From a virus: a stretch of 64,000 nt of DNA. The first letter of the stretch is position 1. The number at the start of each line of letters is the position of its first letter. This document shows, one piece after another, positions 3,705 to 57,300 of the stretch. The stretch is taken from IMG/VR virus record IMGVR_UViG_3300037010_001275, positions 1 through 64,000 of that record; one strand, written 5' to 3'. The notes beneath the pieces are model-generated. The model was not told the DNA's origin, did no database searches, and saw only the letters and a program-made list of their open reading frames with translations. Position numbers and translations under genes: made by a program.

Positions 3705-3851
3705 ATGAAACTCTACAAAATATTCCCTCTTCCCCAAAATTCATGATCGGGGAAGAGGTTTTTTTTTTGACCTAACAGCTATTTCCGCTAGAGAAGGTCA
3801 GAAGACTTCGTCGATGGATACCTTCTTACGGCTGTTACGGTTAATACCGAG
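3705..3851. repeat. direct repeat copy B (ligase 3' end and terminator)
   Basis: Partner of the repeat at 1727..1871 and the presumed parent copy, since here it contains the real end of ligA. The two copies are almost identical through the terminator and the last seven ligase codons and then diverge. Confidence 0.8.
3726..3758. terminator. hairpin terminator behind ligA
   Basis: Ten-base perfect stem (3726-3735 with 3749-3758), followed on the plus strand by ten T residues; on the minus strand it is followed by GAATATTTT. It lies directly downstream of ligA. Confidence 0.75.
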
Positions 3852-5864
3852 GATATCGATTGCCTGCTGCTCATCGATGATCTTCACGCCAAGCTCGGTA
3901 GCCTTTTGGTTCTTAATGGTACCGGATGACGTGTCATTGGTGATGAGGTAGTCGGTCTTGCGACTGATTGACGATGCCATCTTATGGCCGAGACGCTCGA
4001 TTGCTTCCTTGAACTCATCGCGTCCGTAGCCCTTCAGGTTCCCGGTGACGACGACCGTGTACTTCTGACCCTCGACCTGATTTTCCTTGAGCTCCTGTGA
4101 GAAGCTGCGTACCTTGACGCGAGCGCTGAACACCTTGAAGGTCTCCTCGATTAGCTCCTGGTAACGGAACAACACGTCCACGGTGGCCTGATCGACGCCG
4201 TCGATCGCAAGAAGCTTCTGCTCCAGTCGATTTGGCTTCTCTCCAACCAGAGTCTCGACAGAGACATGCTTAAGGATCAGCTTGGCGCGGCTGCGACCAA
4301 AGAGCGGAATGTTGAGCGAGCCGAGCAGCTCATAGTCATACACACCCTTCTCGGAGTAAAGCTTCTTATGAATGGCATCGACGATGATCTTCGCCGACGA
4401 CTTCCCGAAGCCATCCTCTTTAGCCAGACGATCAGAAAGCTCGTCGTCGAAGTCGAGGAACTGGTGAACGTACTCCACGTAGCCCTTATCGTATAGGGCT
4501 TTGATCGTATTGCGCTTAATCCCCTTGATTCCCATCTTCTCAATGAACTGCTGCAGGCGACCAATCTTGACAAGGTCGCAAGCATCGTTATCACAGAACA
4601 GGAAGACACTGTCATTCTTCAGTTTTTCACCACAGCACTCGCAGTAGGACGGCGGAACGAGTACGACATCCTCCTTACCGCGAGGATGTACGGTCGGAAG
4701 TTTCTCCACGTAGCCGAGGACGTCGTTGTTGAGGCTGAACAACATCCGATCGTTCTTCTGAAGATTCATCTCTTTGAAACGGCGGTAGTTGGCTAGCGAG
4801 ACATTTTGGTATGTCGCGCCATTCATCATTACCGGCTCGAGAACCGCCACAGGCGTGTAGGTCGCACTGTTGCCGTCGGTATACCATTCGACGTCCTTTA
4901 GGCGGGTTTCCTGCTCCATGTATGGAAGCTTGAAGGCGACGGCAAAGCACGGGCGATTGTCAGAATAACCGAGGTTCTCGCGGACGTCCTGATCAACAAT
5001 CTCAACGACGATGCCATCGATCATGTACGGCAAATCAAAGCGATTCTCAGCGATGCTCTTATATAGCTCCTCTAGCTCTTCAACAGACTCTACGACGTGC
5101 ATGTCAATCGAATCAAAGCAACTCTGGCTCTCAGCAAGATCGAGTAGCGCATCAATCTCTTGAATGCGAGTAACATGTTGGCCGGTGATGGCACGATACT
5201 TGAGTGGGATGAGCGTCAAATATTTCGCCATCGGAATACCATTTTCCTTAATGATCCCACCAATCGCCGACCGTGGATTCTTGTAGGATGTGCTGAACTC
5301 AGCATTCAACTTCTCAAGATTCTCCCAAGAAATCACTGCTTCAAAGCCGAAAGCAAAGTCCTCGATAGTCTCGCCATCGATTTGAGGTGGAACGAACTTA
5401 CCTTTGAAGATGCCACCCCAAGCGTTGCGGAAGTACCCGGTCAAGTCTTTGCCTATACCATCCTTGCCGCGAGTCAGCGCCGCCGAGAGGCGATTTTTCT
5501 TGAACTCAGCATTGACGCTGTGACCGTCGTACTTTAGCGAGACGTACAGCGGGGTCTTCCTCGACACCTTGTAGCCACGCCGCCGTAGCCAGTCCTTCAT
5601 TTGGTCGGTACTGACCACCTTGTCGAGAGTGCCAGCGAGATCGTCATAGCTGTGAGACAGCGTAACGGTGCTCGACACGTTTGGGGAGGCTCCGACCTCG
5701 AATCGCTTACCGCTGGCTTTCTCCCAAGCGTCCTTTAGGTCGTCAAAGTCTTGATCCGACATAAGCTTCGTGTCAGTATTGTAATACGCTTGAGCGGCGA
5801 GACGGAGCTTCTTCTCGACCTCTGCTAAATTGATCTTACCACCCTTGGTGGGCTTGAGCGACAT
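3798..5864 (-). CDS. ligA: NAD-dependent DNA ligase LigA
   Basis: Full-length bacterial-type ligase (688 aa; the family is usually about 670). It seals nicks using NAD+. Order of domains: N-terminal Ia helices (YYNTD...SDQDFDDL), adenylation domain with the nucleophile in KYDG (K111), OB fold, a Cys4 zinc finger (C-x2-C-x12-C-x4-C near residue 415), helix-hairpin-helix region, and a C-terminal BRCT domain (about 600-670, VVVTGNLKGYGRDEF). AGGAGG lies nine bases before the start. Phages more often carry ATP-dependent ligases; NAD-dependent ones are known in several giant phages. It is flanked by terminators on both sides, so probably a single-gene unit. Its 3' end has been duplicated at 1727. 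Confidence 0.96.
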   Translation of the reverse strand: MSLKPTKGGKINLAEVEKKLRLAAQAYYNTDTKLMSDQDFDDLKDAWEKASGKRFEVGASPNVSSTVTLSHSYDDLAGTLDKVVSTDQMKDWLRRRGYKVSRKTPLYVSLKYDGHSVNAEFKKNRLSAALTRGKDGIGKDLTGYFRNAWGGIFKGKFVPPQIDGETIEDFAFGFEAVISWENLEKLNAEFSTSYKNPRSAIGGIIKENGIPMAKYLTLIPLKYRAITGQHVTRIQEIDALLDLAESQSCFDSIDMHVVESVEELEELYKSIAENRFDLPYMIDGIVVEIVDQDVRENLGYSDNRPCFAVAFKLPYMEQETRLKDVEWYTDGNSATYTPVAVLEPVMMNGATYQNVSLANYRRFKEMNLQKNDRMLFSLNNDVLGYVEKLPTVHPRGKEDVVLVPPSYCECCGEKLKNDSVFLFCDNDACDLVKIGRLQQFIEKMGIKGIKRNTIKALYDKGYVEYVHQFLDFDDELSDRLAKEDGFGKSSAKIIVDAIHKKLYSEKGVYDYELLGSLNIPLFGRSRAKLILKHVSVETLVGEKPNRLEQKLLAIDGVDQATVDVLFRYQELIEETFKVFSARVKVRSFSQELKENQVEGQKYTVVVTGNLKGYGRDEFKEAIERLGHKMASSISRKTDYLITNDTSSGTIKNQKATELGVKIIDEQQAIDILGINRNSRKKVSIDEVF

Positions 5865-6978: not shown

Positions 6979-7716
6979 TTAAGAATTAAAGTTTAGTGGG
7001 ATCTTGGTATTTACAGTGAATTGAATGCGGTCCTCGCGGTGATCGCGTTCCGAGCCCTTCTTGGGCTTGTGACGGTGCGAATTATCATGCTTCGGAACCT
7101 CGGCGCGAACATGGTTCTTCGGATGACGGTCCTCGCGACGGAGGCGCGGCGCAATATCGATATCCAACTCAGCCTTGATGTACTCGATTGCCAGCTTTGC
7201 GGCGTCCGGGTCGGATTCCGCGATGAGCATCTTAATCTTCTCAATCCGTTTCTCGAGAAGCAGATCCGAGTCGTTAAGGATCGCTATTACTTCATTGAGC
7301 CGAAGATACTGTTTGATTTGCAGCGTTATGTCTTCTTCGCTGCTCTCTTCGGTATTCGCCTTGGTTTCGGCATACTTCTCAGACTCGCTGCGCTCCCAGA
7401 CGATTTCGTGCATCCGATGCTCGTCATCCTGTAGCGAGACAGCCACGACCTCGTGTTCTTTGGTCATGGTGACGGCAATCGTTAGCTCGACGTCAGAGAA
7501 GTTCTCCTTGAGAAACTGCTCAGAGACTACCAACACGGTCGAACCATTCACGAGGACGTAGTCGCCGAATGTAATGCGCTGCTTGGTCTCGTTGACCATA
7601 AACTCGTCACCCTTGTACTTCTTGCATAGCTTCTTGAGAATATCATTTTCCCTCCAGTTCCAGGTAAATTGATGAGCTTCGAAAACGGACTGTAGATTCT
7701 TTGGGTAGACTTTCAC
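6979..7716 (-). CDS. hypothetical protein, 245 aa, GTG start
   Basis: Unknown. The start codon is GTG at 7716, supported by AAAAGGAG seven bases before it; no ATG has such a site. The N-terminal 110 residues look globular, the middle (about 120-180) is helical and acidic, and the last 60 residues are a His/Arg/Lys-rich tail (HRHKPKKGSERDHRED) that could bind nucleic acid. It lies directly downstream of the ParC-like gene, so a link to DNA handling is possible but not shown. Confidence 0.75.
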   Translation of the reverse strand: MKVYPKNLQSVFEAHQFTWNWRENDILKKLCKKYKGDEFMVNETKQRITFGDYVLVNGSTVLVVSEQFLKENFSDVELTIAVTMTKEHEVVAVSLQDDEHRMHEIVWERSESEKYAETKANTEESSEEDITLQIKQYLRLNEVIAILNDSDLLLEKRIEKIKMLIAESDPDAAKLAIEYIKAELDIDIAPRLRREDRHPKNHVRAEVPKHDNSHRHKPKKGSERDHREDRIQFTVNTKIPLNFNS

Positions 7717-7770
7717 TTTTCTCTCCTTTTACGGTAATTCAAGAGAGGACCGAAGCCCTCCCTTGGTTTC

Positions 7771-10215
7771 TCAAATATTGACGACAGTGATGGACGAGAT
7801 CTCATCATCATCGTTCAATTTCATAATTGTGGAGCCCTTGGCCGCCCGCCCGAGAGTGGCGACTTGATCGGCTTCGATCTTGATAGTCTTGTTGCTCTTC
7901 GCCGTTATGACAACCTGCTCGGAGGCGCGGATGAGAACGGTCTTGCACAGCTTGTCCTCGGGGTACAGTTTGATCGCAAGGAAAGCTGCACCCTGACCGG
8001 ACTCGGTGCGCTTGTACAGCAGGTCGCTGATGCGGACCATCTTGCCCTTACCATTGGTCGTGATGAACAGGACAAAAGAGTTTTCTTCCTCGTCCGTGCT
8101 GCTCAGGACCGCCCCGGCGACACGCTCTCCTTTCTCCTTCAACCGGATCATCTTGCGGCCCATGGAAGGACGGCGCTGCTGCGCGATGTTCGACAAAGGA
8201 ATTTTGGAGGCATAGCCGCGAGATGTCGTGATCACTACGAGGTCCTTCTCGGGATTCTTCGCATGGAGGACAGACGTAAGAATTTCATCTCCCTCCAGTG
8301 ACACGACCAGCAGACCGTCAGCGGGCATTCGCTGCGGGCGGCACTCGTCAAGTGGAACACGCTTCGTCAGGGATGATGACGTCACAAACACGATGTCGCC
8401 AGCGTCGTCCGGTGTGATCGGGACCAAAGCTGCAACCTTCTTGCTACCAAGACCATTCACGATATTACTCAGGTGGACGTGGTTGACGTTCAACTGGAAG
8501 GCGTTGACGATGAATAGCTTGCCGTCCTCGGTGAAGACGAAGAGCTTATCGTGCGAATTCAACACGATCGACTTCTCGACCACCTTGTTGCGCTTGCTAT
8601 CAATAAGCAGCTGACCTTTCGTACCCTTGTTAGCGTCCCGAAGTTCCTCGACCGGTTTTGAGTAGACGTAACTGTCAGTCGTAAAAGCCAGCAGCAGGTT
8701 CTCCTCCTCTATCAGGTCCGTCATCTCAACCTTTCCGACATTCATCAGTTTGGTCTTACGCGGTGCTTTGTACTTCTTGGCGACGGCCTCGAGCTCCTCA
8801 CGGATGATGCCGTCGATCAGGTCGGAGTCCTTCAAGATGTCTTCATACTCCTTAGCCGTCGCAGCCTTTTCTTTTAACTCTGCTTCGAGCTTGGAGACTT
8901 CGAATCCAGAGATCTTGTAGAGCTGTTGCTCGACAATGTATTGTGCTTCTTTCTCAGCGAAGTCGTACTTCTCGATAAGTTGCTGCTTCGCATCTTCCTT
9001 GTCCTTAACCTTCTTCATCAGCGAGATGATGGCGTCGATGTTCTTGTTAGCCTTGATTAGCGCCCGTAGGATGGTCATGCGTTCCAGAGTCTTCCCGATC
9101 AGGTTGACATATAGGCGACGCACGGTCCGACGGCGGAACTCGATCCAGTTGGTCAGGATGAAGTCTAGAGATGCATTGGCGATGAACTTTCCGCCACTCA
9201 GGATATTCATCATATACTTATGCGAGTACGTCATGCTCGTGTTCTCAAGAATCAGGTTCTTGAGGACAGGTAGGCTAACGCCGCGCTTCGGGTACACGAT
9301 GATCTCGACCTTCATCTTAGCAGACGAGTCCTTAATGTCGGAGATCTTGTCCTGCAGTAGGCCGGGGACCTTCTTCTTGCCCTCATCACGCTCCCGGCAC
9401 AGAGCCGTGATCTCCTCAACGATTTTACCGGTGGTAAGCCTTGGCGGGATCTCCTTGATGATGAGAACCTCCTTACCACCCTTCTTACCCTCTTCGATCA
9501 CGCCCCGGACACGAATAACGCCCTGCCCAGTCTCGTAAATCCTTGGCAGGTCCGCCGCGTTCAGGATCTCGCCGCCTGTCGGGAAGTCAGGCCCCTTTAG
9601 ATGCTTGGCGATCTCCTTGCTATCGAGGCTCGGATCATCCAGCTTGGCAATTGTGGCGGCGCAGATGTCGCCGACGCTGTGGATGGGGATGTCGGAGGCG
9701 TAGCCAGAACCGATACCCATCATCCCGGAGTTCAGGATGACCGGAAACTTTGACGGCAGGAAGATGGCGATTTTCTGGCTGCGGTCGTAGTTATCCTCAA
9801 AGTCCACAATATCATTGCTGATATTCTCGAAGAGAACCTCACGAGAGTATGAGCTGAGCTTGAGCTCGAGATATCGCTGCGCGGCGAAGGGCTTACCCTG
9901 CAGGTTACCGTTATTGCCCTGCGCGTCGATGAACGGGATCTCGTTCTTCCACCACTGCGAGAGGCCGACCATCGAGTCATACAAGCTCAGGTCGCCATGC
10001 GGGTGGAACATAGACACCGTTGCCCCAGTGTAGTACGCCGCCTTCTTGAAACCCGAGACGTTCTCGCGGTGCATCGTGAAGAGGATGCGACGGTTGACGG
10101 GGGTCAGACCATCCTCGAGAGCGGGGATAGCACGGCTGATCAGCACCGAAGCGCCATAGATGCTGTACGCGTCGGCAAAAGCCTGATCGATCGGCTTGTC
10201 AATAATGTTTTGCAT
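7771..10215 (-). CDS. type IIA topoisomerase subunit A (ParC/GyrA-like)
   Basis: 814-aa DNA breakage-reunion subunit. Motifs: N-terminal winged helix with the catalytic Arg-Tyr pair in AAQRY (Y115), the HPHGD loop at 71-75, tower and coiled-coil region with long helices (about 360-480), and a C-terminal beta-pinwheel (about 500-814). A degenerate GyrA-box-like string, QQRRPSMGRK, is seen; because the box is imperfect, a topoisomerase IV-like decatenase is as likely as a gyrase. Partner of the ParE/GyrB-like subunit at 11979, 1.8 kb upstream. T4 instead uses a three-gene enzyme, so this is a bacterial-style pair. AAGGAA precedes the start. Confidence 0.93.
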   Translation of the reverse strand: MQNIIDKPIDQAFADAYSIYGASVLISRAIPALEDGLTPVNRRILFTMHRENVSGFKKAAYYTGATVSMFHPHGDLSLYDSMVGLSQWWKNEIPFIDAQGNNGNLQGKPFAAQRYLELKLSSYSREVLFENISNDIVDFEDNYDRSQKIAIFLPSKFPVILNSGMMGIGSGYASDIPIHSVGDICAATIAKLDDPSLDSKEIAKHLKGPDFPTGGEILNAADLPRIYETGQGVIRVRGVIEEGKKGGKEVLIIKEIPPRLTTGKIVEEITALCRERDEGKKKVPGLLQDKISDIKDSSAKMKVEIIVYPKRGVSLPVLKNLILENTSMTYSHKYMMNILSGGKFIANASLDFILTNWIEFRRRTVRRLYVNLIGKTLERMTILRALIKANKNIDAIISLMKKVKDKEDAKQQLIEKYDFAEKEAQYIVEQQLYKISGFEVSKLEAELKEKAATAKEYEDILKDSDLIDGIIREELEAVAKKYKAPRKTKLMNVGKVEMTDLIEEENLLLAFTTDSYVYSKPVEELRDANKGTKGQLLIDSKRNKVVEKSIVLNSHDKLFVFTEDGKLFIVNAFQLNVNHVHLSNIVNGLGSKKVAALVPITPDDAGDIVFVTSSSLTKRVPLDECRPQRMPADGLLVVSLEGDEILTSVLHAKNPEKDLVVITTSRGYASKIPLSNIAQQRRPSMGRKMIRLKEKGERVAGAVLSSTDEEENSFVLFITTNGKGKMVRISDLLYKRTESGQGAAFLAIKLYPEDKLCKTVLIRASEQVVITAKSNKTIKIEADQVATLGRAAKGSTIMKLNDDDEISSITVVNI

Positions 10216-11020: not shown

Positions 11021-11036
11021 CTATTATATATTAATG
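11021..11036 (-). promoter_or_regulatory. AT-rich promoter-like motif
   Basis: Minus-strand reading ATTAATATATAATAG, one of at least six similar strings placed upstream of minus-strand units. No fitting sigma-70 -35 box was seen, so a phage-specific promoter is inferred. Confidence 0.45.
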
Positions 11037-14396: not shown

Positions 14397-14732
14397 TTAG
14401 GAACACAGAATTTTCTTACGGTGATCATCGATGTCTCGAGTGAACCATCTAGTCACTTGTGTCATCTCAGAGAATGTTGTCTCAGTAACCTCTTTGTAGG
14501 AGTTGATTTGTACGCATGGGCTCGTACTGCCGTTGTGGAAATAAAAGACGTTATCGTCTTGGACAGTAAAGTGTCCATACCACTTGGAGAGAATATCATC
14601 CAGCGCCACAGAGATGAACTTCTCGACCTCTTCATCCTTGCAGCAGATACAGAGCATCACGACCGACTGGAAGGTATTTTCACCGTCCTTCTCGATCAGG
14701 GAGACGGCATAGTGATGGTTCCGCTTACCCAT
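14397..14732 (-). CDS. hypothetical protein, paralogue 3 of a tandem trio
   Basis: 111 aa. Clearly related to the two genes before it: shared pattern of an N-terminal strand, a helix ending in LSKWYG, and a C-terminal helix ending in RKKILCS. Function unknown. Its ATG overlaps the end of the preceding gene by 8 bases, with AAGGGGA as ribosome site, so the trio is translationally coupled. It lies just upstream of the ParE-like gene. Confidence 0.75.
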   Translation of the reverse strand: MGKRNHHYAVSLIEKDGENTFQSVVMLCICCKDEEVEKFISVALDDILSKWYGHFTVQDDNVFYFHNGSTSPCVQINSYKEVTETTFSEMTQVTRWFTRDIDDHRKKILCS

Positions 14733-15135
14733 CTCCGTTCCCCTTAAGAACGGCTCTGCGTACGAGATCGATGTCGTACTCGATCTTCGGTATCAATGAT
14801 ATATCGTCGAAGGTCGTGTCGGAGACTGACTCATACCCATCGAGCGATGCAGTGCTGTCTCGGTCATTCACATAGTGCCAACTGTAAGGGGTCTCCAAGT
14901 CCTGTTCAGCCTCCACATAGAGGTTCTTGAAGTATTCCGTCAATGCGTAGTCGAGTAGCTCATCAACTTCATTGTCCTTGCACCAGAGTCGAAAGAGCTG
15001 AAAAACGTCTGACGTACCCAAATCGCCTGAGTAGTAGACGTGGAACTTTGCCAAAAGACAGAAGGATTTTTTACTTATATTGGCATCTGTACTGTCATGT
15101 TCAATCGATGTAGTGCTCCCCTTCTCTACGAGCAT
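14725..15135 (-). CDS. hypothetical protein, paralogue 2 of a tandem trio
   Basis: 136 aa, the most diverged member of the trio. It keeps the DEL...YALTEYFKNLY helix and the terminal VRRAVLK helix but has an N-terminal extension of about 25 residues. Its ATG lies inside the last codons of the preceding gene (overlap 10 bases), with AAGGTG as ribosome site. Acidic, soluble, no known motif. Confidence 0.72.
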   Translation of the reverse strand: MLVEKGSTTSIEHDSTDANISKKSFCLLAKFHVYYSGDLGTSDVFQLFRLWCKDNEVDELLDYALTEYFKNLYVEAEQDLETPYSWHYVNDRDSTASLDGYESVSDTTFDDISLIPKIEYDIDLVRRAVLKGNGDG

Positions 15136-15461
15136 AGCACCTTCTTCCGAATCTCATCAGTGTCAAATTGATAATCGTGCACTATGTCTGCGATAGCTTC
15201 GTAGACCTCCTCAGTGATCTCCTTATATTTGAACATCTCGATCGACATTGATCCATCAGCATTTTCATACCAGGAGCCTTCCTCCATACACTCTGTAGGT
15301 TCGCCATACCAGTTCGACATGATGCTGTCCACACAGGCATCAATGACCTTATCTGGATCTTCATAATTATCAGCAACGACTTTGACCCTACAGACAGTGT
15401 AGAACTCTGTTTCTCCAAAGTTTTCCTTCAGCTTCAGTAAGTAGTAAAGTGTTTTCTTCAT
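15126..15461 (-). CDS. hypothetical protein, paralogue 1 of a tandem trio
   Basis: 111 aa, first of three tandem paralogues. It shares IMSNWYGE and the C-terminal RKKVLCS with the third member (LSKWYG, RKKILCS). A GGAGC-type ribosome site precedes it, and an AT-rich promoter-like motif lies about 40-55 bases upstream. Function unknown; small acidic trios like this in phages are often host-directed, which is only inference. Confidence 0.75.
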   Translation of the reverse strand: MKKTLYYLLKLKENFGETEFYTVCRVKVVADNYEDPDKVIDACVDSIMSNWYGEPTECMEEGSWYENADGSMSIEMFKYKEITEEVYEAIADIVHDYQFDTDEIRKKVLCS

Positions 15462-15495: not shown

Positions 15496-15515
15496 TAATA
15501 ATATTATATATAAAA
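15496..15515 (-). promoter_or_regulatory. AT-rich promoter-like motif
   Basis: Minus-strand reading TTTTTATATATAATATTATT, upstream of the paralogue trio; the longest example of the repeated ATATATAAT motif. A hairpin (GAAACGTCTT, 15533-15542, with 15556-15565) sits just before it. Confidence 0.5.
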
Positions 15516-15577: not shown

Positions 15578-16036
15578 TCAGAGGACTGGGACATCTATCT
15601 GGAAGAGGTGATCGTAGACCTTCAACAGACCTTCAATGTGCCTCCACTGAATCCAGTATGGCTCTTTTCTCGTCCACTTCGGAACCCTCGGTGCTGGTTT
15701 GTAGGTCTGGAAGATCTTATTGCTGAAGACGGTGTTATAGATGACGCACTCTACCTCGCCAGAGAGACGAAGAAGCTGCGCCTGCTTCTTGTGGGCCAGA
15801 GCGATCTCTTTGTCTGTCATCTGAGGGTGTTTCCCATAGTGCTCTTCGATGAACTCGTAAAAGGCATCGAGAACATCGAGCTGATTGTTGAGCTCCTCAA
15901 CCACGTCTTGAAGGGCGCTGAGCATGACATCGTTCAGTTCAACTTGGCGTAGTCCGAAGAGCTTGAACGAGGGCTTCAGAGAACGGAGTGTTTGGGCGCT
16001 GTCATCGACCCGCGAGCAGAGCTTGGATAACTTCAT
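15578..16036 (-). CDS. hypothetical protein, 152 aa
   Basis: Unknown, predominantly helical. TAGGAGA lies seven bases before the start. Its end is followed by the 15533-15565 hairpin. It may belong to the same unit as the metallopeptidase-VWA gene upstream, from which it is separated by 45 bases that hold a short GC hairpin. Confidence 0.72.
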   Translation of the reverse strand: MKLSKLCSRVDDSAQTLRSLKPSFKLFGLRQVELNDVMLSALQDVVEELNNQLDVLDAFYEFIEEHYGKHPQMTDKEIALAHKKQAQLLRLSGEVECVIYNTVFSNKIFQTYKPAPRVPKWTRKEPYWIQWRHIEGLLKVYDHLFQIDVPVL

Positions 16037-16081: not shown

Positions 16082-17338
16082 TCAGTCTTCATCCGGGTCA
16101 AACTCGACCACGGAGCCAAACGGAAACTTGTCGGCGGGCAGGCAGCCCTTCAATACGACCCAGACGACCTCGAAGTCTGGCGGGATTTGCGGAAAGGCTC
16201 CCCACCCGTCAGTACAGTAGACCATGATGCGGCAGTTCGGCATGTGTTCGTTAACGTACTCGATTGCTGGGATGAACGAGGTGCCACCTCCGCCGCTACC
16301 CTTTGGTGTATTACTCTGGAAGTCTTCACCGACGGTATAGTGGTAGACCGCGTCGACCGCCGCATCGGCTTCGATCAGCGTCAGGTCATAGCTGTCAAAA
16401 CTGTTGAAGATGTGTTGTAGCTCACCATAGACCTTCGGCAGGTATCGCACCATCGAGCCGGATGTGTCCGCCGCTACGGCGAATTCTACGTGTTCACCCT
16501 GCACTGAAGGCATGATCATGTTGAGATGAAAGAATCGTTTGTTCGGCGGATTCATCTGATAAACACTCTTGAACATATTCATCACATGATTCGCGAGCAA
16601 CTCCCGCCAATCGATCTTTGGCTCGGTAGTGATCATTTTCTCGAGTAGTCTCATGGACGCAGGAAGGTTGCCCTGGTTTTGTTGCTTCATGGAGATCAAT
16701 TCTTTCTCCATACGGTTCTTCCACTGGCTTTCGTTCTTCTTGGCCTCTGCATCACCGATCATATTTTTCAGCTGCTCGGGCGGTAGGTGGTCGTCGACGA
16801 GGCCACCATTCGGAATCTGCGGCATCAATCCCTGCCCTCCGCCTGGCATAGAGATCTTCTTCCAACCTTTGCTCTCCTTGACGAGATCGGCATAGACCTG
16901 CTCTACTGTCATGCCGTCATACTTGACGTTGAAGAGGGCGTGTTCTGGCATCTTCATGAAGACCTTCTTGCGGGCAGCGACAGTCTCATCAATCACATTC
17001 TTGAGTAGACCATTCACAACGTAGTCGGCAGCGATATTCCACAGTGAAATCGGCGTGCCGTCGCTGCTCAGGACTATGATGTTACGGTCACCTATGCGGT
17101 ACGGATTACAGTGACCGAGGGCGGCGTGCAGGACCTCGTGGGCAATAAGGAACGTGTTTTCCTCCTCCGTGTTTTTATTCACGAAGTCAGAATTGTAGTA
17201 CAGATTTTTGGAGTCAGTTGTCATCGTCTTAATGCTATTTCTTTCCACCCGGTGCAGCCCGCATGCGAGGCTGCCGAATAGGCGGTAGGAGAAAAGCATC
17301 CGGAAAATGGCCTTCTTAAGTTGTTCCTCGATCGTCAT
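16082..17338 (-). CDS. metallopeptidase-like plus VWA domain protein (DUF2201 type)
   Basis: 418 aa in two parts. The N-terminal part has a zincin-like site HEVLHAALGH (H67, E68, H71, H76). A central helical linker follows. The C-terminal part is a von Willebrand A-like domain with the metal-binding MIDAS string DTSGS (291-295) and a later CTDG. This is the layout of the putative metallopeptidase/VWA family that works beside MoxR ATPases. The start overlaps the stop of the 445-aa gene (ATGA), and the MoxR-type ATPase is the first gene of the operon. Likely role: substrate-binding partner of the ATPase in remodelling a protein complex; the target is unknown. Confidence 0.85.
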   Translation of the reverse strand: MTIEEQLKKAIFRMLFSYRLFGSLACGLHRVERNSIKTMTTDSKNLYYNSDFVNKNTEEENTFLIAHEVLHAALGHCNPYRIGDRNIIVLSSDGTPISLWNIAADYVVNGLLKNVIDETVAARKKVFMKMPEHALFNVKYDGMTVEQVYADLVKESKGWKKISMPGGGQGLMPQIPNGGLVDDHLPPEQLKNMIGDAEAKKNESQWKNRMEKELISMKQQNQGNLPASMRLLEKMITTEPKIDWRELLANHVMNMFKSVYQMNPPNKRFFHLNMIMPSVQGEHVEFAVAADTSGSMVRYLPKVYGELQHIFNSFDSYDLTLIEADAAVDAVYHYTVGEDFQSNTPKGSGGGGTSFIPAIEYVNEHMPNCRIMVYCTDGWGAFPQIPPDFEVVWVVLKGCLPADKFPFGSVVEFDPDED

Positions 17339-18672
17339 TTATTTCTCCTGAGTTCGTAGTAAGTTGTAATAAGGGTTTGCAGTACGTAATCGCTAATAAC
17401 AAGATGATTGTGGCTCGTGTTGTTGATGAGCTTCATCCGGTTTTGGATGGCTGTGTCAAGCCTTACGATGATGGAATCACCGAGCATTCCGCTGTCGCGG
17501 GCGGCAATCAGTTTCATACAGAGTGGTCGTAGGGTCTGGTCGACCGACATGTTGTAGACCATCAGACTCGGGGTCTGGATTATAGTCTCGATGTTGGTCA
17601 TCGGGTCGCCAGACAGAGTTATGATGAGGCTCATAATCTTCCGCTCCGAATTCGTGTCCAGACTCGAGGAGACCTCCTTCAAGCTAATAATCTTCTGTGC
17701 GGCGTAGGACTCCGGCTTTACTAGCCCTCCGAGCGTCGTGATGATCTGTGTCGTCAATCCCATCATCGAGAAGGCCTCGACGTACGGACGCAACGTCTGG
17801 TCATTGGTGCTAAAGCGGAAGGCAGCTGTTAGGTCTTTCATGACGGATACCGCGCATCCGATCACTTCATCAACACAGTACGCGTTTGACGGCTCCGAGA
17901 TTGCCGTGTTCTGCTGGATCATATTAAGGAGGTGATACGTGACTGACTTACCAAACCTGTCGTATCCATAGACCAGATCTGTCTCGTTCTGACCGAAGTA
18001 CCTCATCGAAATGTAGTCCTTCCACCAGTACGCCAGATCTGAGATTCTCTCAGCGTTGCCGACCCAGCCCCCTAGTGCCAGCCCGAGGAAGAATGTGAAC
18101 GATGGATCCATTGATTTGACGATCGCTGTTATTCCGCCATTCTTGCTGGTCCTTTTCTTGTAGATTGAAAGGTTCCGGTAGCACTCTTGGAAGCATATGT
18201 CTGCGCACAGGTTAAGCAGATGCTTACGTGCTTCCCAGCCTAGCCCAATTTTGCTGCGAATATCATTGATAAAACCGGCACTTTCGGCGTCAAGATACGA
18301 CGTCCAAGTCTCCCGGCGCATGACATGTGAATAGAAGTCCGAAAGGATACCCCCAGCGGTGTGATATTTCTTCTTGAGCTGTTTTACCTGATGGCTCGGC
18401 ACATTCAGGTCGACATCGCCGGATCGCAGAAGCAGGTTCAGTGTCAGCATATTCAGCCGGTACAGATTGAATTCTGTAATCTCCCAAGCTTCCATGCGCT
18501 GGCTCTCGTTGAGCATCGTCAGACTTGGGATCGATAACACGACATTGTCCGGCGTCAGGTCCTTTCCGTACTGACGTTTGAGGAAGGTGTAGACCTTGTT
18601 GAAGTCATTCGACAACATGAAGTCTAAATCCTGCAGAAGGCAGAACCCTATGGCGTCTTGAATTATGTTCAT
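17335..18672 (-). CDS. hypothetical protein between MoxR and VWA genes, 445 aa
   Basis: Not recognised. Mostly helical, soluble, without a signal peptide. GGAG lies six bases before ATG, directly after the U tract of a terminator. Its stop overlaps the start of the VWA gene by four bases, so the two are coupled. Its position between an AAA+ ATPase and its VWA partner suggests an adaptor or a phage-specific substrate of that machine; this is inference from context. Confidence 0.8.
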   Translation of the reverse strand: MNIIQDAIGFCLLQDLDFMLSNDFNKVYTFLKRQYGKDLTPDNVVLSIPSLTMLNESQRMEAWEITEFNLYRLNMLTLNLLLRSGDVDLNVPSHQVKQLKKKYHTAGGILSDFYSHVMRRETWTSYLDAESAGFINDIRSKIGLGWEARKHLLNLCADICFQECYRNLSIYKKRTSKNGGITAIVKSMDPSFTFFLGLALGGWVGNAERISDLAYWWKDYISMRYFGQNETDLVYGYDRFGKSVTYHLLNMIQQNTAISEPSNAYCVDEVIGCAVSVMKDLTAAFRFSTNDQTLRPYVEAFSMMGLTTQIITTLGGLVKPESYAAQKIISLKEVSSSLDTNSERKIMSLIITLSGDPMTNIETIIQTPSLMVYNMSVDQTLRPLCMKLIAARDSGMLGDSIIVRLDTAIQNRMKLINNTSHNHLVISDYVLQTLITTYYELRRNK

Positions 18673-18687
18673 TCTTACTCCAAAAAA

Positions 18688-18719
18688 ATAGGACGAAGCC
18701 TTAGTAGGCTTCGTCCTAT
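18688..18719 (-). terminator. terminator or attenuator inside the MoxR operon
   Basis: Thirteen-base perfect stem (18688-18700 with 18707-18719), then a seven-U tract on the minus strand. It ends most MoxR transcripts before the two downstream genes, so their level is probably set by read-through or a separate start. Confidence 0.8.
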
Positions 18720-18723
18720 GCGG

Positions 18724-19803
18724 TTACGCGAGAGGCAACAAGTGCTTGATCTGCGAATAGAAGCATTCGAAGGCTTGCTTCACCTTCTCGCTCTTTGCTC
18801 CGATGATTGGTAACTTGTTACCAGTAAACTCCTTGAAAGAGGCAACACGGATCTCCTCCGTTGGAATCCGCTCGAGGTAGCGGTACACGGCGAGAAGTTG
18901 CTCCTCCGTTGGGGCCTTCTTCTGGTTTTGGAAGAAGTACACGAGAGCCGTGTTGATACCGTAGATTGCTGACAGGTCGCTCGGTAGAGTGTATTCTTTG
19001 TCCATGTCGAGGAGCGTCTGAGTATCTACGACGCCGTTAAGCAATTCACGATACGCCCAAAAGTCGATGCCAGCACCCTCGCCCACGGTACCGAAAATCG
19101 TCTCGCGCATCTCATCCGGTGGCAGATTCAAGCCCAGTACCATTGAGGTGTATTCCCAAGTACGTGGAGAAGGGAAAGCCTTGCTCTTCGAGTTCGGATC
19201 GAATTTGTGGAGTAGGTCTTCGCGGAATGACAGAAAGCCGAGAACCGACTTGTCGATACCTTCCTTGTACGCCCACGGCTTCCACTTTTCGAGGCTGATG
19301 TCAAGGTCGAGGTGGATCATCCGGTTAGCTAGTGGTGCAGCCATCTTGAAAACGACACCCTTGTCCGTCTCGCGATTTCCGGCACATACGAGTGCGGCAC
19401 CTTCCGGCAGAGTGTAATCACCAATTTTGCGGTCCAATACGAGCTGATAAGCGGCAGCCTGAATTAGCGGCGGTGCACTGGTCAGCTCGTCGAGCATGAT
19501 GACCCCACACCAATCTTGGTTGGTTGGAAGCATTGCGGGTGGGAGCCAGATCGCCTTGCCGGTCTTCGGGTTCGGGTATAAAATACCACGCAGATCAGAG
19601 GGCTCTAGCTGGCTGAGACGGATGTCGACGTGGTGGAAGACGAACTCGTTGTCTTCGGTCGTCTCGCGCAGCTCCTCGGTTATTTCGTCTGCGATTTGAC
19701 GTACAATCGAGCTCTTACCGCCGCCAGCGGCACCCCATACACCGACGGGGATCTTATTCATGATGAGCTCTTTCAGGGTCAGTTTCAGGGAATCGATAAA
19801 CAT
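18724..19803 (-). CDS. MoxR-type AAA+ ATPase
   Basis: 359-aa AAA+ protein. Walker A is GAAGGGKSS (24-32), Walker B is VIMLDELTS, and a sensor-like CAGNRETDKG follows, as in MoxR/RavA ATPases. Start at 19803 chosen because the fold begins there and GAGAGGA lies upstream; an ATG six codons earlier lacks a site. MoxR ATPases pair with VWA proteins to assemble or activate complexes; the VWA gene lies two genes downstream. An AT-rich promoter-like motif lies 60-75 bases upstream. Confidence 0.9.
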   Translation of the reverse strand: MFIDSLKLTLKELIMNKIPVGVWGAAGGGKSSIVRQIADEITEELRETTEDNEFVFHHVDIRLSQLEPSDLRGILYPNPKTGKAIWLPPAMLPTNQDWCGVIMLDELTSAPPLIQAAAYQLVLDRKIGDYTLPEGAALVCAGNRETDKGVVFKMAAPLANRMIHLDLDISLEKWKPWAYKEGIDKSVLGFLSFREDLLHKFDPNSKSKAFPSPRTWEYTSMVLGLNLPPDEMRETIFGTVGEGAGIDFWAYRELLNGVVDTQTLLDMDKEYTLPSDLSAIYGINTALVYFFQNQKKAPTEEQLLAVYRYLERIPTEEIRVASFKEFTGNKLPIIGAKSEKVKQAFECFYSQIKHLLPLA

Positions 19804-19864: not shown

Positions 19865-19880
19865 CAATTATATCATATAT
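19865..19880 (-). promoter_or_regulatory. AT-rich promoter-like motif
   Basis: Minus-strand reading ATATATGATATAATTG, a variant of the repeated motif, in the divergent gap between the MoxR gene and the plus-strand fibre module. Confidence 0.4.
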
Positions 19881-20471: not shown

Positions 20472-22580
20472 ATGACACATTTCCACAAGTTTCACGATAC
20501 TACTCAGGCGGCTCCCAATAGCCGGAACGAGAATGCTAGTTTCGAACGCCTTGCAACTGATCCAGTTCCCGTTTCCGCCGGTCGTATCTGGTTCAACACT
20601 ACTGACAAGGCGTTGAAGTATTCCTCGCTCGACACCAATGGTGCGGTTGTCGTCCGCACTATCAGTTCCGTCGAGGATATGCAGGCCACCATCTCCACTT
20701 TCCAGACCGCTCTATCCAATGAGGTTTCTCGCGCCCAATCCGCCGAATCTACTCTCACGACTAATTTGTCTGCTGAGGTTGCTCGTGCACAGGCCGCTGA
20801 CGCCGCTTTGGAAGCCGAGGCCCAAGTCCGTGCCGCTGCTGACTCCCAACTGACCAGCGATCTAGCTGTTGAAGTTTCTCGCGCTACGAATGCTGAGGCT
20901 CAGCTTCAGACCGCTCTGTCCAGCGAGGTCTCTCGTGCCACGAATGCTGAAGCTCAGCTTCAGACCGCTCTGTCCAGCGAGGTCTCTCGTGCCACGAATG
21001 CTGAAGCCGTTGAGACGCAGGCTCGTATCGATGCTGACACGGCTGCTGCCGCTGCTGCCGCTAATCAGCTTGCAACCGAAGCAGCCACTCGTCAGGCTGG
21101 GGATACCCGTCTTGATGGTCGCATTGACACTGTTCAAGCCGAGCTGGATTGCACTCAGGCTGGCACTGGTCTGAATGCTGATGGTACGTTCACTGCTCCG
21201 GAGAACACCACTTACCTTGGTGAAGTCGTTACTCTGAAGGCTGCTGGTGCCGCGCTAGATAAGGCTATCACAACTGAAGTCAGCCGCGCTCAGGCAGCTG
21301 AAGCCGCTCTGTCTTCTGCTCTGGCTGCCGAGGCTCAGCTCCGCACTGACGGCGACAACGCCCTGCAAGAGCAGATTGAAGCTTGGGTTAAAACCCAGAT
21401 CGCTCTCGGCGGCACGACTGACGAGAATCGCGTTGCTGCCGAAGCCGCTCTGCGTATCGCCAAGGACGACGCACTGCAAGCTGAGTTGGATCGCACTCAG
21501 GCTGCTGTCGGTCTCGACACTGATGGAAACTTGACTCCCATCACCGGCACGAACTATCTTGATGGTGTTGCGTCTGTCTTTGCCGGTGTCAACGCGCTTG
21601 ACGTGCAACTGAAGGTCGTCACTGACGGTCTGGCCGGCGAAGCTCTGGCCCGTCAGACTACCGATCAAGACTTCCTGAATCATCTGCAGGCTGAAACCAT
21701 TGCTCGCACTTCCGGTGACGTCGCTATCCTCCAAGGAATTGATTTCATGCGGGCTGGTGCTGGCTTAGAAGCTGATGGTTCCTACGCTGCTCCCACAGGC
21801 TCCAACTATCTGAATAGTGCTACCAGCCTGAAGGGTGCCGATTACATCCTTGACGCTGCTATCAAGGTTAACGCTGACGCGATCGCTGCTGAGAGCGCCG
21901 CTCGGGATGCTGCTGATGCTAACGAAGCCTCCCTACGCACTGCTGCTGATACTGCTCTTGACTCTCGTGTGGCCATAGTTGAAGGTCAGGTCAATGGTAA
22001 GATTGGTGACCTGTCCACGCTGGTAACCATTGACAAGAGCACGCTGATTGCCGCTATCAACGAGGTCAGCAGCAGTGCCGCTGCCGAAACAACCCGTGCC
22101 ACCGCTGCTGAAGCTGCTCTGACGTCTGACCTCGCCACAGAGGCTTCTCGTGCTCAGGCTGCTGAAGCCACTCTGACGTCTAATTTGGCTACTGAAGCTG
22201 CTGCTCGTTTGGCTGCTGAAGCCACTCTGACGTCTGACCTCGCCACAGAGGCTTCTCGTGCTCAGGCTGCTGAAGCCACTCTGACGTCTAATTTGGCTAC
22301 TGAAGCTTCTCGTGCTCAAGCTGCTGAAGCTGCCCTGAAGAGCACTATCAACGCTCAACAGTTCACATACATTTCTGATACAGCTAATCTGTCTCACACG
22401 ATCAATCACGGTCTGAACAGCGAACACATCCTGTTCAACATCATGGTTGAAGGTGCGGATGGCAAGTTCCGCACCGACACCGTTTCAGTGGAAGAGCTGG
22501 ACTTCAACTCCTTCCGCATCGAGCTGACTGAAGCTCACCGTGTGAAGGTTGCTGTTTGTGCGATGACAGCTTTGTCTTAG
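20472..22580 (+). CDS. long repetitive tail fibre, 702 aa
   Basis: Fibre shaft protein. The N-terminus (GRIWFNTTDKALKY) looks like an attachment domain. The shaft is made of 18-residue repeats such as EASRAQAAEATLTSNLAT, interrupted by three copies of a 40-45-residue block with the pattern AG-GL--DG--P--NYL--A--SL. A beta-rich C-terminal domain (TINHGLNSEHILFNI to the end) follows and is shared with the broken ORF upstream. Fibres of this kind are trimers that bind host surface structures. AAGGAAG lies before the start. DNA repeats inside it make it prone to length change. Confidence 0.88.
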   Translation: MTHFHKFHDTTQAAPNSRNENASFERLATDPVPVSAGRIWFNTTDKALKYSSLDTNGAVVVRTISSVEDMQATISTFQTALSNEVSRAQSAESTLTTNLSAEVARAQAADAALEAEAQVRAAADSQLTSDLAVEVSRATNAEAQLQTALSSEVSRATNAEAQLQTALSSEVSRATNAEAVETQARIDADTAAAAAAANQLATEAATRQAGDTRLDGRIDTVQAELDCTQAGTGLNADGTFTAPENTTYLGEVVTLKAAGAALDKAITTEVSRAQAAEAALSSALAAEAQLRTDGDNALQEQIEAWVKTQIALGGTTDENRVAAEAALRIAKDDALQAELDRTQAAVGLDTDGNLTPITGTNYLDGVASVFAGVNALDVQLKVVTDGLAGEALARQTTDQDFLNHLQAETIARTSGDVAILQGIDFMRAGAGLEADGSYAAPTGSNYLNSATSLKGADYILDAAIKVNADAIAAESAARDAADANEASLRTAADTALDSRVAIVEGQVNGKIGDLSTLVTIDKSTLIAAINEVSSSAAAETTRATAAEAALTSDLATEASRAQAAEATLTSNLATEAAARLAAEATLTSDLATEASRAQAAEATLTSNLATEASRAQAAEAALKSTINAQQFTYISDTANLSHTINHGLNSEHILFNIMVEGADGKFRTDTVSVEELDFNSFRIELTEAHRVKVAVCAMTALS
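20873..21010 (+). repeat. 54-bp tandem repeat in fibre gene
   Basis: About 2.5 copies of a 54-bp unit encoding VSRATNAEAQLQTALSSE; adjoining copies are nearly identical, including GAATGCTGA at 20889 and 20943. Confidence 0.8.
22110..22330 (+). repeat. 54-bp tandem repeat array, C-terminal part of fibre
   Basis: Four copies of an 18-codon unit (EASRAQAAEATLTSNLAT and variants). Alternate units are almost identical at DNA level, for example GCTTCTCGTGCTCAGGCTGC. Confidence 0.8.
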
Positions 22581-32546: not shown

Positions 32547-32560
32547 CATATTATATATGC
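32547..32560 (-). promoter_or_regulatory. AT-rich promoter-like motif
   Basis: Minus-strand reading GCATATATAATATG, upstream of the helicase. It abuts the left arm of a 12-bp inverted repeat (32559-32570). Confidence 0.5.
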
Positions 32561-38048: not shown

Positions 38049-38095
38049 TTTCCCTTTTCCTCATATATAATACATACGAACACCGAGTCAATCAT

Positions 38096-38219: not shown

Positions 38220-39572
38220 ATGCTAAATGTAAAACCGAGAGACATCCAGAGCGAGTTCAATGAGCTGGCGCTTGTGACCAACTACGAGGCACTCGACAAC
38301 GATTTCCGCTTCACGGCGGACGGCGTCTTCTCCGAGCGGATCTTCGGGTTCATGACGAACGGCGTCGATCATTCCTGTGAGTGTGGAAAGTTTCAGGGTT
38401 CGTTCAACCTTGGACACACCTGTGATGCGTGCGGTACGAAGGTGACGTTCAGGGGGTTACAGTTAGCGCGGGAAGGCTGGGTCGACTTGCGCTATCCAGC
38501 CCTACACCCAGTCTTCTTCCGCTATTTACGGAAGATCATCGGAGCGACGGCGCTGAATGACATCCTAAACTACAAGATGAAGATCAATGTCAATGGAACT
38601 CCGGTGGAAGTCCCAATGGAGGCACCTTTCAAGGGGATCGGGATGTTCCGTTTCATTGAAAACCTCGACGACATCGCCCAACATTTCCTCGACAAAAAGA
38701 AGGACCCAGCCAAGTGGCGTGACTGGCAGTTCTTTAAGGAAAACGAGGAGATAGCATACATCGACAAGTTCCCAATTATCAATAGCCGCCTTCGCCCCGG
38801 CAACGTCATTAACGGCGAGTTTCAGTTCGACGAGATCAACAACCTGTACAATGCGATCATCAGGAACTCGGAGACACTCGGCAGCTTCACGGATATCGAG
38901 GCGACCGAGTCGAACATTCTGACGTTGGTCTATAAAAACCAAATGCTCATCAACGAGATCTTCGACACGATCCTCGAAACCCTCTCGAACAAAGAAGGTT
39001 TCATTCGGAACAGTCTGATCGGTTCCCGACTGAACCTCTCAGCCAGGAATGTGATTACGCCACTGTCTGGCGAGTACAAGATGAACGACTGCGTCGTGCC
39101 CTATAAGACAGCGATGGAGCTCATGAAGCCACTAATCCTTCGCAAGTTGCAAAAGATCAAACGCGTCCCGATCCAGCAGGCGCAGAAGATTTGGTTCGAG
39201 GCTACCCTTACGTACAATAAGCTCGTCCATGCAGTGATGCGTGATATCGCCAAGAACGAGAACGTCAAGATTCTTCTGAACCGTAACCCGACCATCAACG
39301 TCGGATCGATCCTGTTGCTCAACATCGCTGACGTAAAAGGCGACATGAGCGATGTCACACTGAGTATCAGTAATCTTGTGTTGCCGTTGCTTGGTGCCGA
39401 CTACGATGGTGACGTGCTCAACATCGTTCTTGTTGTCTCGAAGCGGTTCGTCGAGATGTTTGCGCCCTTCCAGCCGTCGAATTTCGTAATCAACTGTGAC
39501 AGTGGCGACTTCAATGGCAGCTTTAAGCCCTTCAAGGATATCGAGGTCGGGCTGCAGTCACTCTTGAACTAA
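38220..39572 (+). CDS. RNA polymerase beta-prime subunit, N-terminal part
   Basis: 450 aa covering the N-terminal third of bacterial RpoC. A zinc-binding domain has the exact bacterial spacing C53-x-C55-x12-C68-x2-C71. Near the C-terminus the catalytic loop LLGADYDGDVLN carries the three Asp residues (D394, D396, D398) that hold Mg2+, matching NADFDGD. LLNRNPTINVGSI matches the LNRAPTLHR motif. The subunit ends shortly after the loop, so the rest of beta-prime must be a separate gene outside the window, as in phiKZ-type phages. AAGGAAG before ATG. Terminator follows. Confidence 0.93.
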   Translation: MLNVKPRDIQSEFNELALVTNYEALDNDFRFTADGVFSERIFGFMTNGVDHSCECGKFQGSFNLGHTCDACGTKVTFRGLQLAREGWVDLRYPALHPVFFRYLRKIIGATALNDILNYKMKINVNGTPVEVPMEAPFKGIGMFRFIENLDDIAQHFLDKKKDPAKWRDWQFFKENEEIAYIDKFPIINSRLRPGNVINGEFQFDEINNLYNAIIRNSETLGSFTDIEATESNILTLVYKNQMLINEIFDTILETLSNKEGFIRNSLIGSRLNLSARNVITPLSGEYKMNDCVVPYKTAMELMKPLILRKLQKIKRVPIQQAQKIWFEATLTYNKLVHAVMRDIAKNENVKILLNRNPTINVGSILLLNIADVKGDMSDVTLSISNLVLPLLGADYDGDVLNIVLVVSKRFVEMFAPFQPSNFVINCDSGDFNGSFKPFKDIEVGLQSLLN

Positions 39573-43371: not shown

Positions 43372-44340
43372 ATGAAGAAATCCATTCGGGACACCTACGT
43401 CTACAAGGTCCTCGATCTGGAAGCGACTGTCAAGAACTGTGGGGTGGTCAACTCCAGCCTCGACAAGTATGTCCTGAGCAAGGACGTCGTCGAGGCCATC
43501 TTGAGCGAGATGAAGTTTAAGATTAGCTTCCCATCTAAGCAACTCGTCATCGATGAGATTAAGGCGGGACATATCACGTTGGTTGACACTTCGCTGGTGT
43601 CGTCTCTGCCGACGTGGATGATCACCGCCGATGGTGTGTCTATCAAGACCGCCGTCGTGAACCTCTTCGGGAAGATCAAGATCCGCGAGGATGGCACTGC
43701 GCAGTTCAATATCCGGGAGGTCTTCGCCCTTGCGGTGATCGCCCTAACGGTGCGCGAGTTCTACCTCAAAGAGGCCAAGATTGTCAACAACCTGAACATT
43801 ACGAAACTCGCTGTCGCGATCTATGAGCGCATGATATACCGCGTACTCGACGTGCTGTTCTCGCTCGATGTCGGACCCGAGTGGCTCCGCAATTCCATTA
43901 AGGTCGATATTCGAATCTTCGCTGCGTACTATCTGATGGAGAAGCGGTTCAACTCCGTCTCCGACTACGATAACGTGTATAACTACATTCTCAAGGACGT
44001 TCTCCGTAACGTCGATCCTGCGCAGTATCTCGCCAAGGTCGCCGCCGGGGGCGGTCAGGTCTTCGACGCTGAGAAGTACTCCTCACTACCGACGTTCATT
44101 GAGTGTCTGTCGAAAGTCCATCCGATCCTCAAGGACTTGGACGTCACGATGTTCCTCCGTAAATTCATTATGATGTACGGTGAGAAAGCCTTACTCATGA
44201 TTGAGAACTACCAGTACTTCCTCGCATATGTCTTCTCGGTGACCCTCTCAGGTAACATTGTGAAGGACTTTGCTCTGGAGGCTCCTGTAGGCAAGGAGGG
44301 TATCCAGCTATACAACTCGTATTTTGAGCTTGTGAAGTAA
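43372..44340 (+). CDS. hypothetical protein, 322 aa
   Basis: Not assigned; mainly helical. Start supported by GAGATGAACG. Third gene of the unit that starts at 40328, ending at a terminator hairpin. Probably a structural or assembly factor given its neighbours. Confidence 0.68.
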   Translation: MKKSIRDTYVYKVLDLEATVKNCGVVNSSLDKYVLSKDVVEAILSEMKFKISFPSKQLVIDEIKAGHITLVDTSLVSSLPTWMITADGVSIKTAVVNLFGKIKIREDGTAQFNIREVFALAVIALTVREFYLKEAKIVNNLNITKLAVAIYERMIYRVLDVLFSLDVGPEWLRNSIKVDIRIFAAYYLMEKRFNSVSDYDNVYNYILKDVLRNVDPAQYLAKVAAGGGQVFDAEKYSSLPTFIECLSKVHPILKDLDVTMFLRKFIMMYGEKALLMIENYQYFLAYVFSVTLSGNIVKDFALEAPVGKEGIQLYNSYFELVK

Positions 44341-47441: not shown

Positions 47442-48083
47442 CATATGTGTTCAGAAGTGTTCGCTACACACTCCCCGGATAATAAATCCAGCTGCATGTC
47501 ACCATGCAGATCAGACTATATCTTCTCTCCTTTATCGGAGAGCTCCCTATTTCCATCGCCAATGGCTTGCGATGTACTCTACTTGATTCCGCTATTACTA
47601 GCGTTCTTTCGATAGTCGTTGAACGTTCCACTGACACTTACCACGAATAATTAATTGATATATGTTTCCAAGTTTTTCTTTGCTGGATATTCCGCACTGT
47701 TTACTCTGATAATTCCATCAGATTCATATCCTGTTGGGTATTATTCACAGTCTTCCAGCAACCAGCTTATTACAGATCTCGTGAACCTGCTTTTCTGTTG
47801 GAAGTACATTTTTGCATGCCGCGCCTCTTGGTCTTAAATTTATATCAACTACGTGCTATAAAAATTCTTAGTAGGCATAACCCACTCCAAGTTGGATACT
47901 TCATTGCATCGTTTGATGTCATTGATGTGATTCACTTGGTAAGAATCGTCAAATATAATTCGTGATTTGTTTAGCTAAAGGCTATCTCCATTTCTGTGGT
48001 GAGCCAGTGGCTTCGCTGCTGATTGTCTCAAAGAGAGTTTCCAGCAGTTAAAGGAGTTTTACTTCGGCAGGCAATGAACTTTT
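47442..48083 (-). other. group I intron in the RNA polymerase beta gene
   Basis: 642-nt intron. P1: exon TTCGGT (48089-48084) pairs with internal guide GCCGAA (48068-48063), with a U.G pair at the splice site. CTGCTG (48047-48042) pairs with CAGCAG (48021-48016) around GAAACTCTCTTTGAGACAAT, a P3-P4 type segment. P7: GACTAT (47617-47612) pairs with ATAGTC (47519-47514), within TTCAACGACTATC and AAGATATAGTC, the classic R and S boxes. P9: CTGCATG/CATGCAG (47509-47492). The intron ends in G (47442). Joining 48084 to 47441 keeps the frame (GGT/GAG) inside RFG-E. Confidence 0.9.
47745..47974 (-). pseudogene. decayed HNH homing endonuclease in the intron
   Basis: Two fragments in different frames. 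The first (47974-47849) encodes YQVNHINDIKRCNEVSNLEW, the HNH_3 core with the paired Asn-His and the NLEW end. The second (47855-47745) encodes GAACKNVLPTEKQVHEICNK, the usual region after the HNH core. A frameshift and stops separate them, and there is no start codon or ribosome site. The endonuclease that once spread the intron is therefore probably inactive. Confidence 0.8.
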
Positions 48084-49814: not shown

Positions 49815-50118
49815 CAGGGCTCCTTTCAAAATAATACACACTCTGCGTATGCAGTACTGGCATTTTCTCGTGCGTTTTTATAAATGTGAATGTTGGCGTA
49901 TAAAAGCATGGCTCGTCACCAACACGTAAGCCAGTGCTCTTTCGCCAAGCCACAATCTTACGTTTGCGGATGGATGATGTACAGGCAATGATGTTATGGA
50001 CCGGATATTGGGCAGTGTAGAAAAGCGTCTTCGTCTGCCTGATGACCGGGAGTACATAGGTAGTTATGTTCTCGGACGCCCTTCTGTTGGGATACAGTTC
50101 TCTGACTTCTAGATACAT
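49795..50118 (-). CDS. hypothetical protein, 107 aa
   Basis: Unknown; Arg/Tyr/Thr-rich and basic. The start at 50118 follows GGGAG by eight bases. Its 3' end overlaps the start of the polymerase beta gene by 20 bases, so the two are probably coupled. It fills most of the gap between uvsX and the polymerase gene. Confidence 0.6.
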   Translation of the reverse strand: MYLEVRELYPNRRASENITTYVLPVIRQTKTLFYTAQYPVHNIIACTSSIRKRKIVAWRKSTGLRVGDEPCFYTPTFTFIKTHEKMPVLHTQSVYYFERSPDEGKEG

Positions 50119-57290: not shown

Positions 57291-57300
57291 TTATCATATA

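Follow-up and report, generated by a model that had tools for sequence, protein, structure and literature searches.

The 64,000-nucleotide stretch of viral DNA analysed here (the window; positions 1 to 64,000 of IMG/VR record IMGVR_UViG_3300037010_001275) carries a minus-strand operon of an AAA+ ATPase gene, a hairpin, a gene for a protein of 445 amino acids (aa) and a gene for a zincin-like metallopeptidase fused to a VWA domain, in this order. The ATPase/VWA pair itself is known. Three features are new: a third component, the protein in the middle, which is conserved but evolves fast; the diversity of proteins which occupy the same slot in other elements; and the recurrence of a hairpin after the ATPase gene. 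None of the three was found in the literature searched (open-licence papers only). A sequence-only reading had claimed these three genes, the coupling and the hairpin, and all are present at the positions it had given.

A fast-evolving third component

The middle gene (17335..18672, minus strand) encodes a 445-aa protein predicted to be mainly helical. Its stop codon and the start codon of the VWA gene overlap as ATGA (4 bases) in the window and in the related contig G001, and in another related contig, G003, the two reading frames overlap as well, which bears out the proposed coupling. The codon usage fits the coding frame only and is slightly less adapted than that of the neighbouring genes. 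No usable match to the protein was found in Pfam, PHROG, NCBIfam, PADLOC or the Protein Data Bank (PDB), and peptide-pattern searches in phages, IMG/VR and GTDB contigs returned nothing. Homologues were reached only via the nearest phages, fetched first through their RNA polymerase. The homologue in G001 and G002 has 444 aa (33% identity over the full length, E 7e-48) and the one in G003 472 aa (25.6% identity, E 6e-15), and all lie between the ATPase and VWA genes and on their strand. The protein still belongs to no recognised family, as had been noted, but it is not a lone orphan, since same-slot homologues occur in three related contigs, two of which are nearly the same phage. On this sequence evidence, it is a real third component of the operon.

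Between the window and G001, identity amounts to 76.7% for the ATPase and 64.7% for the VWA protein and to 32.9% for the middle protein. The 37 shared genes of at least 150 aa have a median identity of 66.8% and a 10th percentile of 43.5%, which ranks the middle protein with the conserved genes that change fastest, though it is flanked by two slow ones. Over residues 1-45, identity to the two homologues reaches 60% and 51%, against mostly 4-38% over the remainder. Within this end, a conserved block at residues 14-45 (LQDLDFxxSNDFNKxxTxLKRxxG; 18538..18633, minus strand) is a candidate docking element, and one constant end followed by a drifting body would suit a docking element joined to a target-facing body. 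A 69-aa open reading frame in contig L099 was discarded as a homologue (E 0.06, judged chance), and homology to AR9 g030/g031 or to the genes downstream in SA1 was tested and unsupported.

The genes at 38220-39572, 48048-49841, 54950-56440 and 43372-44340 identify the phage itself as a new addition to the AR9/PBS1/phiR1-37 group of jumbo phages. Its source record comprises 94,984 bases with a G+C content of about 50% and encodes split RNA polymerase subunits, gyrase, NAD-dependent ligase and primase. The RNA polymerase is nearest to that of Yersinia phage phiR1-37 (44%), followed by the Bacillus phages PBS1/AR9 (38%), and matches to the virion protein at 43372-44340 were confined to the AR9/phiR1-37 group. 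Closer kin than the named phages are found in IMG/VR (3300042389_000647, 3300047095_000666 and 3300046513_000221). RNA polymerase identity to the window phage reaches 72% in G001 and G002 and 58% in G003, a contig of 263 kb. Judging by these relatives, the window is probably a fragment of a jumbo phage of about 250 kb.

The ATPase and zincin-VWA core

The ATPase gene (18724..19803, minus strand, ATG start) encodes 359 aa and matches PHROG 1297, named 'ATPase' (E 2e-83). Walker A (GAAGGGKS, 19734-19711) and Walker B (VIMLDE, 19503-19486) are read from the minus strand, and the Walker and arginine positions are kept across about 150 relatives. Profile comparison with the PDB identified midasin (E 2e-17) and the MoxR-type protein 2r44 as the closest solved relatives. 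By Walker A, Walker B and the conserved arginines, the protein is assigned to the MoxR/midasin-type AAA+ ATPases. The label 'MoxR' given to it earlier is therefore appropriate at the level of the clade but not beyond, as the Pfam AAA_5 match is weak (E 0.2).

The VWA gene (16082..17338, minus strand) encodes 418 aa and matches PHROG 1314 (E 5e-75). Membership in the DUF2201 zincin-VWA family was taken as PF13203 and PF09967 both above cut-off; the protein scored 91.9 bits for DUF2201_N (E 7e-26, cut-off 23.2) and 55.7 bits for DUF2201 (E 7e-15, cut-off 26.4) and is classified by these profiles as a full DUF2201_N + DUF2201 member. These family assignments support the proposed pairing of a MoxR-clade ATPase with a zincin-VWA protein. 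The PHROG name 'HNH endonuclease' was rejected for the protein, in which DUF2201 and HExxH are present and an HNH domain is absent. The same label is widespread for zincin-VWA proteins (PHROG 1314) in INPHARED phage records and is unsupported by their domains.

The motif HEVLHAALGH (residues 67-76; 17111..17140, minus strand) comprises the HExxH zinc site and a fourth invariant His, and the next long helix carries NIAADYVVN (17012..17038, minus strand) with the invariant residues N101, D105 and N109. The metal-ion-dependent adhesion site (MIDAS) consists of DTSGS (residues 291-295; 16454..16468, minus strand), T353 (16280-16282) and D377 (16208-16210). H67, E68, H71, H76, N101, D105 and N109 are kept in all 132 homologues, and the MIDAS residues D291, S293, S295, T353 and D377 are unchanged in the same 132. 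All of these residues are also invariant in 50/50 homologues found via the ATPase alone, a set which is for this reason free of selection by the VWA motifs. Loss of HExxH or MIDAS across relatives, which the sequence-only reading had named as evidence that would speak against it, was thus seen in neither set, and its description of both sites as intact extends to the relatives. The third metal ligand is likely D105 or H76. An AlphaFold2 model of the protein (predicted local distance difference test score, pLDDT, 86.4) places HExxH on the helix of residues 58-73. Foldseek confirmed the VWA fold of this model, with matches including the MIDAS domain of human MDN1, and returned no separate PDB match for the zincin half, despite the helical placement of HExxH in this confident model.

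The ATPase was detected in 845 and the zincin-VWA protein in 745 of 50,697 phage records, the latter including N4-like and rV5-like phages, so the pair is not a speciality of jumbo phages. In almost all of the 149 loci with both genes, the two share a strand, and only a short gap separates the ATPase gene from the VWA gene that directly follows it. Nor is the pair newly recognised: AR9 g029 is annotated as 'zincin-like protease fused to vWA domain', and pairs of MoxR and metallopeptidase-vWA proteins have been reported in group 2.2 jumbo phages (Iyer et al. 2021, PMC7824862). The domain make-up of the group 2.2 pair is that of the window (a MoxR-type ATPase and a vWA protein with an N-terminal metallopeptidase). 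However, it was described as a two-component system, whereas the window operon, from an AR9-type phage, adds a third coupled gene and a conserved hairpin.

Orthologous adjacent pairs on the same strand lie near DNA gyrase B in AR9 (g028/g029) and phiR1-37 (g304/g305); their VWA proteins are longer (474 and 611 aa) than the 418 aa of the window protein, and no middle gene or homologue of it was detectable anywhere in these two genomes. SA1 and LPJP1 also carry the pair. More distantly, gp24/gp25 of N4 (Schitoviridae) are an ATPase and a DUF2201-type protein in this order, with about 23% identity between the VWA proteins.

The slot between the two genes in other elements

In other phage clades and in plasmids, the slot between the ATPase and VWA genes is filled by unrelated families. 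In contigs G006 and G008 the slot contains a 390-aa protein whose gene overlaps the start of the VWA gene, and seven IMG/VR contigs (L097, at 7209-7865, L096, L105, L120, L121, L151 and L155) have a 218-aa family there. The latter family shows weak similarity to Nmad5/PHROG 1965. Three contigs, cyanophage MinM2 and Burkholderia plasmids have a DUF3150-like family (about 285 aa) in the slot. In MinM2 and Burkholderia pBVIE02 (Bcep1808_7108-7110), the gene order is like that of the window, and the protein in the slot, which is also mainly helical, is unrelated in sequence to the window's. On pBVIE02 (CP000618.1 72379-75649; L193:2861-6131) and other plasmids, the ATPase, DUF3150-like and DUF2201 operons lie beside conjugation genes. 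Litunavirus Ab09 (N4 type) also has a gene between the ATPase and DUF2201-type genes, again unrelated to the window's middle gene. Homology of the middle protein to the 218-aa and 390-aa proteins was unsupported (for the 390-aa protein by hhalign), and as a DUF3150-like protein it received an hhalign probability of 0.2 per cent.

Plainly unrelated insertions into the slot occur too, such as the homing endonucleases in Pseudomonas phage Cassandra and other single genes, and the closest named relatives phiR1-37, AR9 and SA1 are without the middle gene. The middle gene might accordingly be a passenger which entered between terminator and VWA gene and is functionally unlinked to both. We consider this quite improbable, as slot, strand and coupling are kept across phages whose RNA polymerases are 58-72% identical and the slot is also filled in other clades.

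The hairpin after the ATPase gene

Between the ATPase and middle genes lies an intrinsic-terminator-like hairpin with a 14-pair stem and a U tract behind it (18688..18719, minus strand), with an RNA fold of -26.8 kcal/mol (z = -5.6 vs dinucleotide shuffles). It had been noticed before, and a hairpin recurs at the same position in relatives. A scan of 131 ATPase-VWA gaps yielded 62 terminator-like hairpins, compared with 0.6 in mononucleotide shuffles. After clustering at 70% ATPase identity, a hairpin followed the ATPase gene in 58% of 22 clusters, other genes in 14% and the VWA gene in 22% (paired Wilcoxon p 4e-4 for the enrichment at the ATPase), with other same-strand gene pairs on the same contigs as control. 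Within the AR9 group, hairpins unrelated in sequence stand at the 3' site of the ATPase gene in the window, G001, G003, G006, G008, phiR1-37 and SA1. As the position is kept and the sequence is not, the comparison points to selection for a hairpin at the ATPase 3' position.

That the hairpin lowers the levels of the partner proteins, as had been suggested, is plausible. It could alternatively be a 3'-end protector or a processing site of the ATPase mRNA and not a terminator, as in G003 and G008 no clean U tract adjoins the stem. This seems unlikely to us, since most of the hairpins do have U tracts and the one of phiR1-37, located after the ATPase gene as in the window, was annotated by its depositors as a rho-independent terminator.

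Promoter motif and expression timing

A promoter-like motif, TATATRATW, is situated 68-76 nt before the ATPase start (19871..19879, minus strand). It occurs 12 times in the 95-kb record (1.5 expected), nearly always in intergenic regions upstream of genes, and 7 times within the window (0.37 expected), among them sites at 11022-11030, 15502-15510, 19871-19879, 32549-32557, 38064-38072 and 57292-57300. The motif resembles the AT-rich early promoters of AR9-group phages. The early promoter of AR9, which is read by the virion RNA polymerase, has the consensus AAATATATATTAT-N6-G (PMC5312081), and a strict match to it is absent. TATATRATW is likely the early promoter class of the window phage. In the AR9 record, an early promoter stands immediately before g028, and the homologues gp24/gp25 of N4 are middle genes (PMC4193335).

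Synthesis at early or middle times would point to a target in the host or to an early phage complex, and away from a role limited to virion assembly. A chaperone for virion assembly or maturation has nonetheless been proposed for the pair of group 2.2 jumbo phages, in analogy with Acidianus two-tailed virus (Iyer et al. 2021, PMC7824862); the pair would fold or disassemble head or tail intermediates, and the zincin would process structural proteins. Two positions favour this: the window operon faces a set of tail genes from 20472 onwards (tail-fibre-like and PHROG 5939), and the gp24/gp25 homologues of N4-like roseophages have a second cluster of structural genes nearby (PMC4193335). Besides the early promoter in AR9 and the middle-class transcription in N4, the divergent gene order, which groups the pair with gyrase and ligase genes and not with head genes, speaks against such a role, as does the middle protein, which evolves unlike neighbouring structural genes such as 43372-44340 (71%). 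A virion or polymerase complex that is assembled or activated by the machine, as the sequence-only reading had suggested, is one option; expression in the relatives makes virion assembly the weaker one, and its chance of being the function of this operon appears small.

Proposed function and comparison with related systems

We propose that the operon encodes an ATP-driven remodelling or protease machine with an excess of ATPase and an interchangeable, fast-evolving specificity subunit, probably directed at a host or early-phage target; the chances for and against this reading seem evenly balanced. The ATPase, as is typical of the MoxR/midasin family, would form a ring. The VWA protein would serve as its co-chaperone, gripping an acidic group of a partner through its MIDAS, and the zincin domain would cut, or at least bind, the polypeptide that is pulled. 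The middle protein may act as specificity subunit, docking on the ATPase/VWA core by its N-terminal element and contacting the target by its quickly diverging helical body. From the ATPase gene's own putative early-type promoter, most transcripts would end at the hairpin, so that the ATPase would outnumber the middle and VWA proteins, whose translation is coupled, an excess that would suit a hexamer with few co-chaperones. Because of the early or middle expression in relatives and the fast divergence of the middle protein, the target would most likely be a protein or complex of the host, or else an early phage complex, rather than the virion.

Several points weigh against this proposal. Most loci have no middle gene, so the core pair can work without it. 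A zincin motif alone does not prove proteolysis, and physical contact among the ATPase, middle and VWA proteins is presumed. AlphaFold without an alignment gave an unusable model of the middle protein (pLDDT 38.6). The hairpin is absent in AR9 and G004 and is without a U tract in G003, and early expression of the window operon is carried over from AR9 and N4 by analogy.

MoxR-VWA pairs usually adjoin the genes of their clients. Rubisco activases are an example of a pair beside its client (PMC4660213), and the middle protein could likewise be activated, matured or clipped by the ATPase and VWA proteins, comparable to CbbQ/CbbO, NorQ/NorD and CobS/CobT. The presence of unrelated proteins in the slot in different clades would agree with this. 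However, the body of the middle family is without enzyme-like motifs or invariant acidic or catalytic residues, its conservation is mostly N-terminal and many phages carry the pair without any middle gene, and a client is in our opinion an improbable role for it.

To our knowledge, ViaA, the VWA co-chaperone of the MoxR ATPase RavA, has no zincin domain. The RavA-ViaA system of Escherichia coli is also without a third coupled gene, unlike the window operon. RavA is in excess over ViaA, with about 350 and 90 molecules per cell (PMC3893208), and this ratio, together with the fit to a hexamer, is consistent with an excess of the ATPase over its co-chaperone. In VMAP ternary conflict systems, a MoxR-vWA core is joined by a third component that evolves fast (Kaur et al. 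2020, PMC7159879). These systems are arranged as VMAP-MoxR-vWA, whereas the order in the window is ATPase-middle-VWA; the VMAP-C domain and fused effectors are absent from the window operon, and its vWA protein carries an N-terminal zincin instead. With no Pfam or PADLOC match in the middle protein and a different gene order, the operon is not a member, though it would work like a VMAP system in outline. A link to known defence systems was not supported either, as PADLOC gave no match. A broader but doubtful extension is that such loci are modular ternary systems, in which a constant, ATP-driven and protease-like core, an interchangeable targeting subunit that evolves fast in a fixed slot of the operon and an ATPase excess set by the conserved hairpin would act early against host or defence complexes, mirroring the bacterial MoxR-vWA-VMAP systems.

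Neighbouring features

Two small paralogous proteins are encoded beside the operon (14397-14732 and 15126-15461), both of which match one G002 gene, and the gene between them (14725-15135) may share their family. A 152-aa downstream gene (15578-16036) was dismissed as a fourth member of the operon, with no counterpart detectable in G002. The 702-aa tail-fibre-like gene facing the operon contains 54-nt periodic repeats (20685-22373; 18-residue units). Intergenic segments of 42 nt and 69 nt are duplicated about 2 kb apart (1740-1880 and 3717-3860).

Biological significance

More than 700 sequenced phages carry such ATPase/VWA pairs, often mislabelled as 'HNH endonuclease'. A third subunit with about twice the divergence of its partners and one conserved end would provide a handle on the target of the machine. 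The recurrent hairpin after the ATPase gene would amount to a testable regulatory rule for the subunit ratio across unrelated phages. Together, the third subunit and the hairpin may show how such machines pick their targets and set the ratio of their subunits.

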